Shown here: positions 15,269 through 24,781 of the stretch, piece after piece | How the letters are laid out: every line of letters begins with the position of its first letter | Numbering within the stretch: position 1 is the first letter of the stretch | IMG/VR virus record: IMGVR_UViG_3300022751_000031 | Span: 1-36,935 of that record | Reading direction: 5' to 3' (one strand) | Source: a virus | Length of the DNA: 36,935 nucleotides | Made by a program: the position numbers and the translations under genes | The notes under the pieces: model-generated | What the model was told of the DNA's origin: nothing | Databases searched by the model: none | What the model saw: the letters and a program-made list of their open reading frames with translations, nothing else

Positions 15269-15297
15269 AATCTACTACAACATAAACGCCGCGTCAA
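15269..15297 (-). promoter_or_regulatory. Candidate internal leftward promoter
   Basis: On the minus strand, TTGACG (15292-15297) and TAGATT (15269-15274) are separated by 17 bp. They fall at the end of the XRE gene and in the only intergenic gap of the leftward operon, 29 bp before the start at 15240. This is a fair sigma70-type match, but short motifs of this quality arise by chance. Confidence 0.38.
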
Positions 15298-15487
15298 TGG
15301 TTTTATTTAGCTCAATAACCTTTTTTTTCAAAATAATGGTTAATGATTTCTTAACGTCATCTGGTATTGGTCGACCTAGGCGTTCCATAGAGTCTACACG
15401 ACCCTTTGCTAAGTTTAGTGCGGTTGCTAGTTGTCCAAGGCTCATGTTGAGCGTGGTGCGGACTTTCTTTAGTTGCTTGCCAGTCAT
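15275..15487 (-). CDS. XRE-type helix-turn-helix regulator (Cro-like)
   Basis: A 70-aa protein with an XRE/Cro-type helix-turn-helix in residues 3-35 (KQLKKVRTTLNMSLGQLAT, ALNLAKGRVDSMER). It lacks any C-terminal oligomerization or cleavage domain like that of CI, so it is more like Cro or an antitoxin-type binder. A natural target would be the divergent promoter region at 18936-19032, where three direct repeats are found; that link is inferred. It lies just upstream of the operon's only gap and overlaps the GcrA-like gene by 4 bp. Confidence 0.75.
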   Translation of the reverse strand: MTGKQLKKVRTTLNMSLGQLATALNLAKGRVDSMERLGRPIPDDVKKSLTIILKKKVIELNKTIDAAFML

Positions 15488-15696: not shown

Positions 15697-16025
15697 CGTA
15701 TCTTTTCCCCTGGCTTACGGACAATCAAAACATCTATTCCCTGATCTGCTTTCAGTATCTTGTATTTCAACTTGCTCAGTGGCGTGAGCAATCCCTTAAA
15801 GTCCGCGACAATCGTTTCTCCTGTTTTCAGGGTGTATCGGTAGTCTGGAATTACTTTGAAAACCTTGTGGCCGTTTATAACGATCTGGAAGGTTACTTGT
15901 CGATCTAGTATGGTGATTTCGCCAGTGCGGTGAAGTTCTTTTAGGTAAAGATAATGGTTGTACTCCCCGCGACTGTCAAATTTTCCGTGTTTTGGGCAAA
16001 TTAACTTTTTATTACCGTATTTCAT
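15693..16025 (-). CDS. DUF1064-type endonuclease-like protein
   Basis: A 110-aa protein matching the phage DUF1064 pattern: FDSRGEYNHYLYLKEL near the start (Glu21 as family Glu), IPDYRYTLKTGETIVADFKG with Asp61 and Asp75-x-Lys77. These acidic and Lys residues fit a PD-(D/E)xK nuclease fold. Family members are thought to act as junction-resolving or repair nucleases. Its place among annealing, NinB and methyltransferase genes fits a DNA recombination role. Confidence 0.78.
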   Translation of the reverse strand: MKYGNKKLICPKHGKFDSRGEYNHYLYLKELHRTGEITILDRQVTFQIVINGHKVFKVIPDYRYTLKTGETIVADFKGLLTPLSKLKYKILKADQGIDVLIVRKPGEKIR

Positions 16026-16693
16026 TTAATCATCTCCAGTAACATGTCGGGTTGTGAGTAAGCGTCTCTGATGCGTTGGCAAGCTATGTCGAAGTATTTC
16101 TTTTCGCGCTCAATTCCAATGAATGACTTACCCATTTTAACGGAAGCAACGCCAGTAGTACCAGAACCCATAAAAGGATCTAAAATGCTGGTTGAATTAA
16201 CAGGTAAATGTCCAATGCACCACCGCATAACCTCAACTGGTTTCTGAGTAGGGTGGTCGCCTCTTGGTTCGTTATTCTTTCTTAACATACCATTCCACAT
16301 AAACTTAATTAGTCTTACTGCCTTATTTAGATTAGTCCAAGCCATCTCACAGTCTGCAAAGTCACTTGAACCGTTTTCCTTATCCCAAATCAACCAGCAT
16401 TTTGTAGGTGGTAATTCAAAGTAGTTACCACCGAATATAATTTGATTGGTTGATATATTCCTAATCATAGAAATTAATAATGGTGAGCAAGGCTCATTAT
16501 CCCAGTCATCATCCCCGTAATCCTTGGATACAGCTAGTTTTCCTCTTGACTTGTTTTTTCCTGCGGCCTCACCAATACCATATGGAGGATCAGTGACCAC
16601 AGCATCAACCTTATCCAGAAACGGCATTACATCCACACAATCCGCATGGTACAAAACACAATCCCCGATAACTACCTTTTCAATATATTTCAT
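16022..16693 (-). CDS. DNA adenine-type methyltransferase (DPPY, beta-like order)
   Basis: A 223-aa methyltransferase. The catalytic DPPY lies at residues 35-38 and the SAM-binding DPFMGSGTTG at 172-181, so the catalytic motif comes before the cofactor motif, as in beta-class enzymes such as CcrM and HinfI. A target-recognition region lies between them. The start at 16693 is chosen because its ATG overlaps the NinB stop (ATGA); a longer frame to 16732 would overlap NinB by 43 bp. No partner restriction gene is seen. It may shield phage DNA or alter host or phage transcription. The C-terminal domain of CcrM is absent. N4-cytosine activity cannot be excluded. Confidence 0.88.
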   Translation of the reverse strand: MKYIEKVVIGDCVLYHADCVDVMPFLDKVDAVVTDPPYGIGEAAGKNKSRGKLAVSKDYGDDDWDNEPCSPLLISMIRNISTNQIIFGGNYFELPPTKCWLIWDKENGSSDFADCEMAWTNLNKAVRLIKFMWNGMLRKNNEPRGDHPTQKPVEVMRWCIGHLPVNSTSILDPFMGSGTTGVASVKMGKSFIGIEREKKYFDIACQRIRDAYSQPDMLLEMIK

Positions 16694-17070
16694 CGATCTA
16701 ACCCGTATTCCAAAGGTGAAGGTATAACACAACCAATCTTATTAGCTGCCAGTATCGTGTAATCTATCAGGCGTGAGTAATCTTCTTTTGTGAGCGTTTC
16801 AGATGCTTTTACCATCGTGTGAACTTTACCCCTATTGTCTTTCCATGTTTCCAGACCCAGTACAGCTTCTTTAATCATGTACTTTGTCTGCTCTTTTGTG
16901 TATCCGGTATATTCAGCGATTATTCCGATAGCCATATGCCAGTAACTTCTCTGCGGGTTTGTCTTACCCGGCTTTTTAATAGACACAGACCATCCTTCGC
17001 CAAGCATTGCAATAGCTGTAATGCAGTTAGCTTTTACTCTGTCATTGGCTAGGATGTATGTCTGTTCCAT
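16690..17070 (-). CDS. NinB-family recombination mediator (lambda Orf-like)
   Basis: A 126-aa protein of normal NinB length. Visible features are GEGWSVSIKKPGKTNPQRSY, the basic loop typical of NinB, then WHMAIGIIAEYTGYTKEQ and LTKEDYSRLIDYTILAANKI. Lambda Orf binds single-stranded DNA and SSB and helps load annealing proteins. Here it follows directly after the Rad52-type and SSB-like genes, so the three can form a full annealing pathway. It overlaps the methyltransferase start by ATGA. Confidence 0.82.
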   Translation of the reverse strand: MEQTYILANDRVKANCITAIAMLGEGWSVSIKKPGKTNPQRSYWHMAIGIIAEYTGYTKEQTKYMIKEAVLGLETWKDNRGKVHTMVKASETLTKEDYSRLIDYTILAANKIGCVIPSPLEYGLDR

Positions 17071-17325
17071 TTAGAACGGCGATGTGTCATCGTCAAAGGA
17101 CTGAGTAGGCGCTTGCTGTTCATTACGCATGTTATCCAGCTTGGTAACCTTTTCTTTGAATGACAGGCTAATAAACGGACCCTTTGATCCTTGTTTATCC
17201 CACCCGTTGATATAATAATTCTTCCCGTCAATTTCCACAGTAGCTTGCCAGTCAGCGTGGGTTTCCTGTTCTTTACGGTCATTACGGAATAGGTTAGTTT
17301 TGTTTGGTTGCGGTTCGTAAGCCAT
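17071..17325 (-). CDS. Small SSB-like protein with acidic DDD...PF tail
   Basis: An 84-aa protein. Its N-terminus (PNKTNLFRNDRKEQETHAD) and core (VEIDGKNYYINGWDKQG, FISLSFKEK) match a small beta-barrel family found in many phages next to annealing genes. The last residues, DDDTSPF, resemble the acidic DDDIPF tip of bacterial SSB that recruits repair proteins. I infer single-stranded DNA binding or mimicry of the SSB tail. The start overlaps the stop of the annealing gene by 1 bp. Confidence 0.7.
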   Translation of the reverse strand: MAYEPQPNKTNLFRNDRKEQETHADWQATVEIDGKNYYINGWDKQGSKGPFISLSFKEKVTKLDNMRNEQQAPTQSFDDDTSPF

Positions 17326-18029
17326 TATAGCCCTTTCTCAGTGAAGTAGATTTTCAGTTTATTGTGTCGGTCTGTCAGATCTTTCTTAAGGTCGTCTGGC
17401 ATACCATTAAATCGCCGCTTGTCTTTGTTATCCTTCGCCCATCGGGTAAGGGTTTCAATATCGCCAATCTTGCCAATTTCCTCTAAAGCCTTTTCATAGA
17501 TGGCTTGTGCATCATATCCTAGGTCTTTTAGGTCGTCTTGAACGCCAGGATAGTTTTTAATGGCTTCTGATTTCTTAGGCTCTGGCTGCACGTACTTAGA
17601 AGCATCAAACTGCCCCATATGAACATCAGCACTCATACCAATGTGTTTCATAGCGTTCATTAGAGCATCCGTAAAAGCTTTCTTAAATGCTTCGTCATCA
17701 GAACGTAGGCCGGAGGATTGCTTAACTATGATAAAGTCACCACCAACGCCCCAGATGTAATCGTCCGAGCTAAGATCTTTCATATTAGCAGTCCATAGTC
17801 CGACAGTGCAATATACAAGCTTCTGCCCCTCTGTACCATCAACGATCTGGTATTCAGGTTTAGTGTAACCCCAACCCTCTCCGCACTGACCAAATACCTC
17901 AGTCATTTTCTGAATAGAATAAATAGGCTTGATAGCAGTTCCGCGGAAACCACCAGCTCGCGTAAATTCTTTTGTTTGCTTTGGGTCTGTTGTTGAAACA
18001 GCATTCCAAACCTTCATGTTTTCAGTCAT
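17325..18029 (-). CDS. Rad52/Sak-type single-strand annealing protein
   Basis: A 234-aa protein. The pattern WNAVSTTDPKQTKEFTRAGG, FRGTAIKPIYSIQKMTEVFG and then DDEAFKKAFTDALMNAMKHI followed by GMSADVHMGQFDASKYV is typical of phage Rad52-like (Sak-type) proteins; an ERF relation is the main alternative. These anneal complementary single strands during phage replication and help form concatemers for packaging. The C-terminal part (about 150-234) is charged and helical, likely for partner binding. It starts on an ATGA overlap with the small gene upstream and is followed by SSB-like and NinB genes. Confidence 0.85.
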   Translation of the reverse strand: MTENMKVWNAVSTTDPKQTKEFTRAGGFRGTAIKPIYSIQKMTEVFGQCGEGWGYTKPEYQIVDGTEGQKLVYCTVGLWTANMKDLSSDDYIWGVGGDFIIVKQSSGLRSDDEAFKKAFTDALMNAMKHIGMSADVHMGQFDASKYVQPEPKKSEAIKNYPGVQDDLKDLGYDAQAIYEKALEEIGKIGDIETLTRWAKDNKDKRRFNGMPDDLKKDLTDRHNKLKIYFTEKGL

Positions 18030-18935: not shown

Positions 18936-18963
18936 ATTATACACACTCAAAAATACATTGCAA
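18936..18963 (-). promoter_or_regulatory. Leftward early promoter
   Basis: On the minus strand, TTGCAA (18958-18963) and a perfect TATAAT (18936-18941) are separated by 16 bp. Transcription would start near 18929, giving a short leader before the start codon at 18904. All 28 leftward genes lie downstream. It is divergent from the rightward promoter at 19005. Confidence 0.78.
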
Positions 18964-18970
18964 TAGCTAA

Positions 18971-19000
18971 AATGAACAATAATGAAAATAGGTGAACAAA
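18971..19000. promoter_or_regulatory. Three 10-bp-spaced direct repeats between divergent promoters (candidate operator)
   Basis: The blocks AATGAACAAT (18971-18980), AATGAAAATA (18981-18990) and GGTGAACAAA (18991-19000) are in exact 10-bp phase, with core TGAAnA. They place equal half-sites on one face of DNA between the two TTGCAA -35 boxes, so a protein bound here could control both. The phage XRE protein is a candidate. Confidence 0.5.
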
Positions 19001-19004
19001 GTCC

Positions 19005-19032
19005 TTGCAATCCACAACCAACCATGTATCAT
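19005..19032 (+). promoter_or_regulatory. Rightward early promoter
   Basis: TTGCAA (19005-19010) and TATCAT (19027-19032) with a 16-bp spacer. Transcription would begin near 19039, leaving a leader of about 70 nt before the start at 19108. This has the same -35 box and spacing as the leftward promoter opposite. Confidence 0.75.
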
Positions 19033-19040
19033 AGCATTGT

Positions 19041-19107
19041 CGTCAGGGTTAATCTCTCAGCTCTGGCGTCGTTTATACAGAGAGATGATAATGTAAGGAG
19101 AGATTAC
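19041..19107 (+). promoter_or_regulatory. Leader RNA: hairpin with apical anti-ribosome-site loop and decoy copy
   Basis: CGTCAGGG (19041-19048) pairs with CTCTGGCG (19061-19068) over 8 bp (two G-U). The 12-nt loop contains TAATCTCTC (19050-19058). This is fully complementary to GAGAGATTA (19098-19106), which includes part of the AAGGAG ribosome site (19095-19100), and 7 bases also match GAGAGAT at 19080-19086. The loop can pair with only one copy, so two pseudoknot states are possible: site hidden or site free. Confidence 0.55.
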
Positions 19108-19395
19108 ATGACACAAGACAACTACAGTATTGATGCTGTTGACTGCGATGGTAAGAAGTTCACAATCCTGAAAGATAACGAAAACCTAATTGACAGTTAC
19201 TATGATGTTATGGGTTTTGAAAAAGAAGAAGCCCAACACATCGTTAAATGCGTTAACAGTCATCCCGCATTAGTAGAGGATTTGGAAATGATAAAGAAAT
19301 CAGAAGAGATTGCATTATTTAACGGAAACCATAGCAAAACCTGGAAGATTGCAGACAAAGCACTATCTATCGCAAAGGGAGATGATAATGACTAA
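19108..19395 (+). CDS. First rightward early protein, hypothetical
   Basis: A 95-aa acidic protein. The start at 19108 is chosen because it follows AAGGAG by 7 bp; the frame is open back to 18982, which would lie upstream of the promoter. A beta-like N-terminus (YSIDAVDCDGKKFTILK) leads into helices, with NSHPALVEDLEMIKK, a small phage motif also echoed at 14562-14795. Function is unknown. Its ribosome site is the target of the hairpin-loop switch in the leader. Confidence 0.68.
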   Translation: MTQDNYSIDAVDCDGKKFTILKDNENLIDSYYDVMGFEKEEAQHIVKCVNSHPALVEDLEMIKKSEEIALFNGNHSKTWKIADKALSIAKGDDND

Positions 19396-20347: not shown

Positions 20348-20545
20348 ATGATAAATATCGATATTACCGGGACTAACGGTGACTATAACGTCAACATTTC
20401 TATGTATGACTTCCTTGGTCCAAATTCCGTTATTATTAACTACAATAATGAAGATCCTATTATCGGTGACAAGGAAAGCTTAGACGCTTCATATAATTTC
20501 GTAATGGATGTTGTTTCAAAACTGTTCTATGAGATGTCAAAATGA
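20348..20545 (+). CDS. Small acidic protein upstream of the helicase
   Basis: A 65-aa protein (starts MINIDITGTNGDYNVNISMY), beta-like with a helical end. The start at 20348 follows GGAGGT by 4 bases and is preferred over an in-frame ATG at 20330 that lacks a ribosome site. The stop overlaps the helicase ATG, so regulation at this start site would also set helicase output. Family unknown. Confidence 0.66.
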   Translation: MINIDITGTNGDYNVNISMYDFLGPNSVIINYNNEDPIIGDKESLDASYNFVMDVVSKLFYEMSK

Positions 20546-21867
20546 ACGATCTTTATAACGAACAGGCAGAGCAATGGGTTCTAGGCACATTACTCAAAAA
20601 CAATAATTTATACGATAAGATCAGCGATACCTTATACCCTTCATACTTTGCCCATGATATTCACGCAAAGATATTTGAAACCATTTCCGAACGTATCCAG
20701 TCGGGTAAAACAGTACGCTGGAATAACTTTGACCATTTAAAAGATGACCCTGATTTTATGAATGTTGGCGGTAAGGATTACCTTGTTGGCTTGCAATCGG
20801 TTGACGGTGTGGCATTTATCGATAATGCCCATATTATACGGGATTATGGATTAAAACGCAAGATTGTAGACGTAGCTAATCAAGCGCTCATTGAAACAAA
20901 AACCACTAAAGAAACGCCGGAAATTATCGGTGATCTTGAGCGTTCCCTTTTTTTGCTGGCCGATAAGAAGTCAACCGAGGATATTCAAAGCGCTACTAAG
21001 GGTATGGAAGACGCTGTTGACTGGATAAAAGAGATTCATTCCGGTAATGTCCGACCGCTTAAGACAGGTTTATTAGACTTAGACCGTACAATTAAGGGGC
21101 TATTTCCTTCCCGCTTGTATATCATTGCAGCGCGGCCGGGAATGGGTAAAACCGTCTTAGCAGTCAATATGGCTGAATACGCCTCTAAAACTGACCGTGT
21201 GCTGTTCTTTTCCCTAGAAATGAGCCGACAAGAGCTTTCAATGCGTATCGCCGCGAGACATACTGGAATACCTGTTGAAGAGCAGCCTACGGTAACTGAC
21301 CCTAAGATCATTGCTTACCTTCGTGATTCGGTTAAATGCGATAACCTTATGATTGACCAGAGAACTATGGGAATATCACAGATGGCTCTTGTCGCCAGAC
21401 GATTACACCGCCAAGGAAAGATAGGCGCTATCTTTATCGATTACGTTGGCCTTATTCCAGGGGATATGCGTTTCGGACGTACAAACATGGTTACAGAGAT
21501 TACCGCTGAGTGTAAAAGGCTTGCCAAAGAGATTGAGGTTCCCGTGGTGTTGCTTTGCCAGCTAAACAGACAGGTAGAGAAGCAAGAAGACAAAAGGCCC
21601 ACCCTTGCAGATTTACGGGACTCTGGTTCTATTGAACAGGATGCTGACGTTGTAATGTTTATTTACCGGGAAGAATACTACCTTAACGGAAAACAAGACC
21701 AACCGATGGATAAGCGTAAAAAGGATTCGATACCGATGGAAGATCAGATTGAGGCTGCTAAAGGCAAGGCTGAGATTATCGTAGCCAAGAACCGTCAAGG
21801 GCAATCAAAGACCGTTCACGTTCGGTTTAATGGTGTTAAACAATTCTTCTTTGATGAGGTGGCGTAA
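20542..21867 (+). CDS. DnaB-type replicative helicase
   Basis: A 441-aa helicase with the DnaB N-terminal domain (EQWVLGTLLKNN, FAHDIHAKIFETI) and RecA-like core. Walker A is RPGMGKT at residues 198-204, Walker B ends IGAIFIDYVGLI near 295-306, followed by a conserved CQLNRQVE and LRDSGSIEQDADVVMFIYR. These are all typical of DnaB. It would unwind the phage fork, recruited by the next gene product. It overlaps its neighbours upstream (ATGA) and downstream (TAATG). Confidence 0.95.
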   Translation: MNDLYNEQAEQWVLGTLLKNNNLYDKISDTLYPSYFAHDIHAKIFETISERIQSGKTVRWNNFDHLKDDPDFMNVGGKDYLVGLQSVDGVAFIDNAHIIRDYGLKRKIVDVANQALIETKTTKETPEIIGDLERSLFLLADKKSTEDIQSATKGMEDAVDWIKEIHSGNVRPLKTGLLDLDRTIKGLFPSRLYIIAARPGMGKTVLAVNMAEYASKTDRVLFFSLEMSRQELSMRIAARHTGIPVEEQPTVTDPKIIAYLRDSVKCDNLMIDQRTMGISQMALVARRLHRQGKIGAIFIDYVGLIPGDMRFGRTNMVTEITAECKRLAKEIEVPVVLLCQLNRQVEKQEDKRPTLADLRDSGSIEQDADVVMFIYREEYYLNGKQDQPMDKRKKDSIPMEDQIEAAKGKAEIIVAKNRQGQSKTVHVRFNGVKQFFFDEVA

Positions 21868-24502: not shown

Positions 24503-24781
24503 ATGAAGATCCTACACGATAACGTCCTGATTAAACGCAATGAGACAGAGGAAACCACCAAGAGCGGTATCATCCTATCCCCGTCCACAATTGACCAACC
24601 AAGTGAAGGCGTTGTAACCCACGTAGGCCCAGGATATGATCTAGGCGTTAAGCAATACAAGATGACAGTCAAGCCCGGCGACAGAGTTCTATTCCATAAA
24701 CACGCAGGAACGGACGTAAAGGTAGACGGCGAGACACTAAGACTATTGCCAGAGTCCAATATTATTGGTATATTTGAGTAA
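24503..24781 (+). CDS. groES: GroES-like co-chaperonin
   Basis: A 92-aa protein, near the usual GroES length (about 95-100). It starts LHDNVLIKRNETEETTKSGI, where bacterial GroES has V-x-V-K-R-x-x-x-E-x-x-x-GGI; ILSP is the mobile-loop tip that contacts GroEL. The GVVTHVGPG and VKPGDRVLFHKHAGTDV blocks and final IIGIFE are all classical. A phage GroES probably replaces the host version on host GroEL so that phage coat protein can fold, as known for T4 gp31. It lies just ahead of the packaging and head genes, consistent with that role. Confidence 0.93.
   Translation: MKILHDNVLIKRNETEETTKSGIILSPSTIDQPSEGVVTHVGPGYDLGVKQYKMTVKPGDRVLFHKHAGTDVKVDGETLRLLPESNIIGIFE

Follow-up and report, generated by a model that had tools for sequence, protein, structure and literature searches.

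A 5'-terminal hairpin loop complementary to the Shine-Dalgarno site of the first early rightward gene in an uncultured podovirus: a candidate translational brake

The leader of the first early rightward gene of an uncultured podovirus carries a stable hairpin (hairpin I, 19041–19068, + strand), the loop of which is exactly complementary over nine nucleotides to a segment overlapping the Shine-Dalgarno (SD) sequence of the same gene. With moderate confidence, this leader is considered to form a cis-acting brake on translation of the first early gene, in which the loop would pair with the SD region as a pseudoknot or kissing complex. This reading is supported by (i) the perfect 9-nt complementarity of the hairpin I loop, the hairpin itself being stable, (ii) the rarity of such an arrangement and (iii) the location of the SD in a second loop, and is also favoured by the position of hairpin I right behind the inferred transcript start. 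The analyzed stretch of DNA, here referred to as the window, comprises the 36,935 bases of a single virus record (IMG/VR record IMGVR_UViG_3300022751_000031).

The source virus is a podovirus and encodes a P22-type portal protein (Pfam, E-value 7e-138), a P22-type coat protein and a Terminase_3 terminase. Leftward genes span from ~18946 down to ~10760 and rightward genes are encoded from 19108 on; thus, 18947–19107 represents a divergent intergenic region. The first early rightward gene (19108–19395, +) encodes a product of 95 amino acids, the function of which was not recognised from sequence: only a weak match to phrog_38385 (E-value 0.006) was obtained, no Pfam family was found in the protein, and its AlphaFold model is of low confidence (pLDDT 58), too poor for a fold search. 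The second gene starts at 19388 (ribosome site and start codon at 19376–19390, +), and a DnaB-like helicase is encoded at 20542–21867. Further along the rightward arm, a phage-encoded GroES-like co-chaperonin (24503–24781, +; Pfam Cpn10, E-value 6e-23) is located just upstream of the terminase genes, and GroES is annotated at a similar place in MW202674. The leftward arm harbours genes for an N6/N4 DNA methyltransferase (Pfam, E-value 1e-22) and a PHROG-annotated exonuclease (16022–16732 and 17325–18029, both −), the latter matching proteins in phage records that carry annotations as exonuclease or as Rad52-like annealing protein. A 70-amino-acid helix-turn-helix-like protein (15275–15487, −), which matches a phage repressor family below threshold, represents a possible regulator.

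A putative early rightward promoter (TTGCAA-N16-TATCAT) is located at 19005–19032 (+). Exact matches to the pattern TTGCAA-N16-TATNAT occur twice in the window (0.07 expected), arranged back to back in the same intergenic region, the other one forming a divergent leftward promoter-like site (18936–18963, −). Based on the position of the pattern at 19005–19032, the rightward transcript probably starts with a G near 19039, and hairpin I begins ~2 nt past this inferred start. No hairpin comparable to hairpin I was found in the leftward early transcript.

The 8-bp stem of hairpin I, formed by the arms CGTCAGGG (19041–48) and CTCTGGCG (19061–68) with two G-U pairs, had been placed correctly by the initial annotation and can be extended to 10 bp by U49-G60 and U50-A59, leaving an 8-nt loop (AATCTCTC; −12.1 kcal/mol). 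Folded alone, 19039–19072 yields −14.4 kcal/mol (z −6.3), a value equalled by none of 200 shuffles. An intrinsic terminator was judged a poor reading, since the tail (TCGTTTAT) does not form a T run. The loop letters TAATCTCTC (19050–19058, +) are complementary at nine of nine positions to GAGAGATTA (19098–19106), so that the nine-base match claimed initially proved exact; elsewhere in the window, sequences resembling the loop are no more frequent than expected by chance. The complementary segment takes in the last three bases of the SD AAGGAG (19095–19100, +; SD and complementary segment together span 19095–19106) and most of the spacer, in agreement with the further claim that part of the first-gene SD is matched. 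The calculated duplex energies are −12.2 kcal/mol for the SD region with the hairpin I loop and −10.8 kcal/mol for the SD with the 3' end of the 16S rRNA.

A feature absent from the initial annotation is the location of the SD inside the loop of its own small hairpin (hairpin III, 19091–19109, +), composed of an ATGTAA stem strand (19091–96), the SD-containing loop GGAGAGA (97–103) and a TTACAT stem strand (104–109). The segment 19089–19112 folds with −3.4 kcal/mol (z −6.1). As hairpins I and III thus carry loops complementary over UCUCUC/GAGAGA, a kissing complex is possible. The first stem strand also reads as a start codon followed immediately by a stop codon (ATG TAA, 19091–19096, +), the stop overlapping the first-gene SD; positioned after a ribosome-site-like stretch, it could couple or load ribosomes. 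According to the proposed mechanism, hairpin I would form once the 5' end emerges from the polymerase, as predicted by folding, and the SD would emerge ~30–40 nt later in the loop of the small hairpin. The two loops would then pair via UCUCUC (19053–58) and GAGAGA (19098–103), with as many as 9 bp in the case of an H-type pseudoknot, and this pairing would compete with ribosome binding to the SD. The SD would also be hidden by a nested long-range fold built from the same letters.

A rather unlikely alternative is that the sole role of hairpin I is to protect the transcript's 5' end, its match to the SD being a coincidence without effect. In line with this, complements of 9 nt or longer arise in 0.7 % of shuffles of 19039–19093, a frequency to be weighed with a look-elsewhere factor of ~60, as the whole window with ~60 leaders to choose from had been scanned initially. 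Moreover, 19–23 % of shuffles hide the SD equally in their final fold, so that occlusion as such is ordinary. A further point against the brake is the unremarkable stability of the fold of the whole leader (z −1.45; −0.6 to −0.7 in another computation). However, the placement of the match in a loop and the loop-loop match are far rarer than the bare complement, it being understood that these tests were devised after the sequence had been seen and that a pyrimidine loop more easily matches the purine-rich SD. A hairpin of at least 7 bp with a 9-nt loop match was obtained in none of 5,000 leader shuffles (8-nt match, 0.08 %), and of the 63 gene starts in the window, no other shows a loop match exceeding 6 nt. 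Other phage loci, with 1,676 gene starts, contained not a single 9-nt and only one 8-nt loop match. A pair of consecutive hairpins whose loops are complementary over at least 6 nt formed in one of 3,000 shuffled leaders, and among 7,374 tiles covering both strands of the window such a match is restricted to this place. A similar loop-loop scan of 2.0 Mb of other phage loci returned 164 redundant matches of at least 6 nt, a handful of which show, besides a start-like triplet nearby, a tetramer resembling an SD at the second loop, their placement at gene starts not being established. Being so rare across the starts of ~1,700 phage genes, the arrangement seems to be a specific device rather than a common leader style.

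Folding of the growing transcript predicts hairpin I (probability near 1.0) as the only strong structure up to a transcript end at 19104. The pairing probability of the SD then reaches 0.8 at 19112 and about 0.93–0.98 from 19116 on. The closed form predicted by the folding program is a long nested fold, not described in the initial annotation, which hides the SD and dissolves hairpin I. On the direct refolding path from the open (−18.4 kcal/mol) to the nested form (−21.1 kcal/mol), as determined by a search allowing no pseudoknots, the saddle lies at −2.3 kcal/mol, corresponding to a barrier of ~16 kcal/mol. Such a barrier would trap hairpin I, making the contact of its loop with the SD the easier way of hiding the latter; loop-loop pairing would be kinetically easy, since hairpin I need not open.

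The predicted folding order also invites comparison with a kinetic timer like that of the MS2 maturation leader. That the nascent RNA is briefly open, with hairpin I holding the anti-SD strand, is considered unlikely, and so is the later stage, in which refolding to the long-range nested structure would shut the SD and the start codon. The transition from hairpin I near 1.0 to SD pairing of 0.94–0.98 in the growing-transcript folds agrees with such a timer, as does a drop in SD accessibility matched by only 2.9 % of shuffles. However, the latter value (P 0.029) is modest, and refolding across ~16 kcal/mol would be too slow for the lifetime of a messenger unless assisted by a pseudoknot intermediate. 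An RNA thermometer was rejected, since SD pairing stays at 0.9 or above from 30 to 55 °C and warming thus leaves the SD closed. Rfam cis-regulatory families yielded no hit at gathering score in the window and only chance-level matches in the leader.

Returning to the pairing of the loop with the SD, the initial annotation had proposed a full switch, in which the loop pairs either with the SD (closed) or with a decoy, GAGAGAT (19080–19086, +), leaving the start site open. The seven bases are indeed complementary to the hairpin I loop, the decoy is transcribed ahead of the SD, and the two loop duplexes are only 1.7 kcal/mol apart (−10.5 with the decoy, −12.2 with the SD). Nevertheless, loop-decoy pairing amounts to ~0–1 % throughout the nested ensembles. 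The decoy is also disfavoured by a crude pseudoknot tally, in which stacking energies are summed and a penalty of 9.6 kcal/mol, the value of the Dirks–Pierce model, is added: the 9-bp pairing with the SD scores −18.8 and that with the decoy −16.6 kcal/mol, a difference of ~2 kcal/mol that lies within model error, energies of pseudoknots and kissing complexes being rough only. The decoy furthermore forms part of a ribosome-site-like copy (19079–19093) that shares 14 of its 15 letters with the second-gene ribosome site (19376–19390), and the exact 12-mer GAGATGATAATG occurs in the window only in these two places. Since copying from, or convergence with, the second-gene ribosome site accounts for these letters, no decoy role is required to explain them. 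In its duplex with the anti-SD, the decoy segment (−7.1 kcal/mol) is weaker than the sites of gene 1 (−10.8) and gene 2 (−11.9). Of the two proposed partners, the SD is well backed by sequence, rarity and folding, the decoy only weakly, and the full switch appears improbable. Most likely, the 7-nt decoy is a ribosome-site-like duplicate that would act at most as a minor competitor or as a landing place; that ribosomes do land there is speculation. Another ribosome-site-like stretch, AGAAGAGATTGCAT (19302–19315, +), is present within the first gene and is 86 % like that gene's own ribosome site (AGGAGAGATTACAT).

Repetition of the short sequence GAGAGATNA at 19050 (−), 19080 (+) and 19098 (+) could be taken to indicate a DNA-level operator binding a repressor downstream of the promoter. 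The three copies are the only ones in the window (~1.1 expected) and all lie in this leader within 57 bp. Such an operator is nonetheless highly improbable, considering that GAGAGATNA is not palindromic, is spaced unevenly (30 and 18 bp), is absent at the leftward promoter and coincides in two of its three copies with ribosome-site sequence. Moreover, no repressor was recognised, the one helix-turn-helix-like protein remaining below threshold.

Scans of phage records, IMG/VR and GTDB genomes with exact short peptides or DNA words, which could miss relatives of moderate identity, revealed no relative of the leader DNA or of the first-gene protein. Exact-peptide searches with phage proteins were likewise negative. 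Three distant loci were obtained with a scan using the portal protein alone. Alignment scans with terminase and portal proteins yielded 160 loci (34–50 % identity in the best segments), none of which carries the first gene or its near neighbours. The sole match to the loop-spacer-SD-ATG pattern (L090) lies in antisense orientation within an unrelated phage's gene and was dismissed as a chance match.

Among known systems, a proposed kissing-loop form hides the SD in the rpsO leader of Mycobacterium tuberculosis (PMC8470358). The leaders of the rpsO/S15 operator of E. coli and of its mycobacterial version likewise can form two stem-loops or a pseudoknot, and the proposed brake resembles this operator in build, since hairpins I and III can provide two stem-loops with pairing of a loop to the SD side as a pseudoknot or kissing form. 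Different from the ribosomal protein gene with its product S15, the present gene is a phage early gene with an unrelated product and no known repressor; its product is not S15 (no Pfam family), and membership in the rpsO/S15 operator type was therefore rejected. It is improbable, yet conceivable, that an rpsO-like operator is carried by an early gene of a DNA phage, with a 5' loop kissing an SD hairpin, stabilised by a protein and shutting off the earliest translation. Similarly doubtful candidates for the stabiliser would be the gene's own product or a host protein such as S15, the site of which the leader would imitate. In stem I, a U-G pair adjoins a C-G pair (19043-66 and 19044-65), which is a lead only towards a repressor that would bind and stabilise the pseudoknot.

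The leader pseudoknot of T4 gene 32, located 67 nt upstream, nucleates protein binding and does not itself pair with the SD (PMC3014915). The likeness to this system is that, in both cases, a leader able to form a pseudoknot precedes the ribosome site of a phage gene; an operator of the gene 32 type was rejected, since the first gene does not match any family of self-repressing single-strand binding proteins. The leaders of MS2 maturation, hok and aapA3 are metastable, the order of co-transcriptional folding setting access to the SD and CU-rich strands masking it (PMC6733600). In the present leader, too, folding order during transcription would set access to the SD and a CU-rich strand would mask it. 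By contrast, MS2 employs a cloverleaf and long-distance pairing, and the toxin messengers hok and aapA3 come with antisense RNAs and are processed at their 3' ends; nothing of the latter kind was seen here. An MS2-type succession of open nascent and closed final fold is predicted for the present leader, to be read with the 2.9 % of shuffles and the ~16 kcal/mol barrier given above. In timP, tisB and ColIb-P9 repZ, the partner of a 5' hairpin element is likewise located downstream, close to the ribosome site (7-bp pairing in timP), but these pseudoknots promote translation and leave the SD unoccupied (PMC11228461, PMC8383071), whereas in the present leader the loop would pair with the SD itself. 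If regulation proves true, a second phage leader with direct loop-to-SD contact, located at the first early gene, would widen the class of leaders with such a contact.
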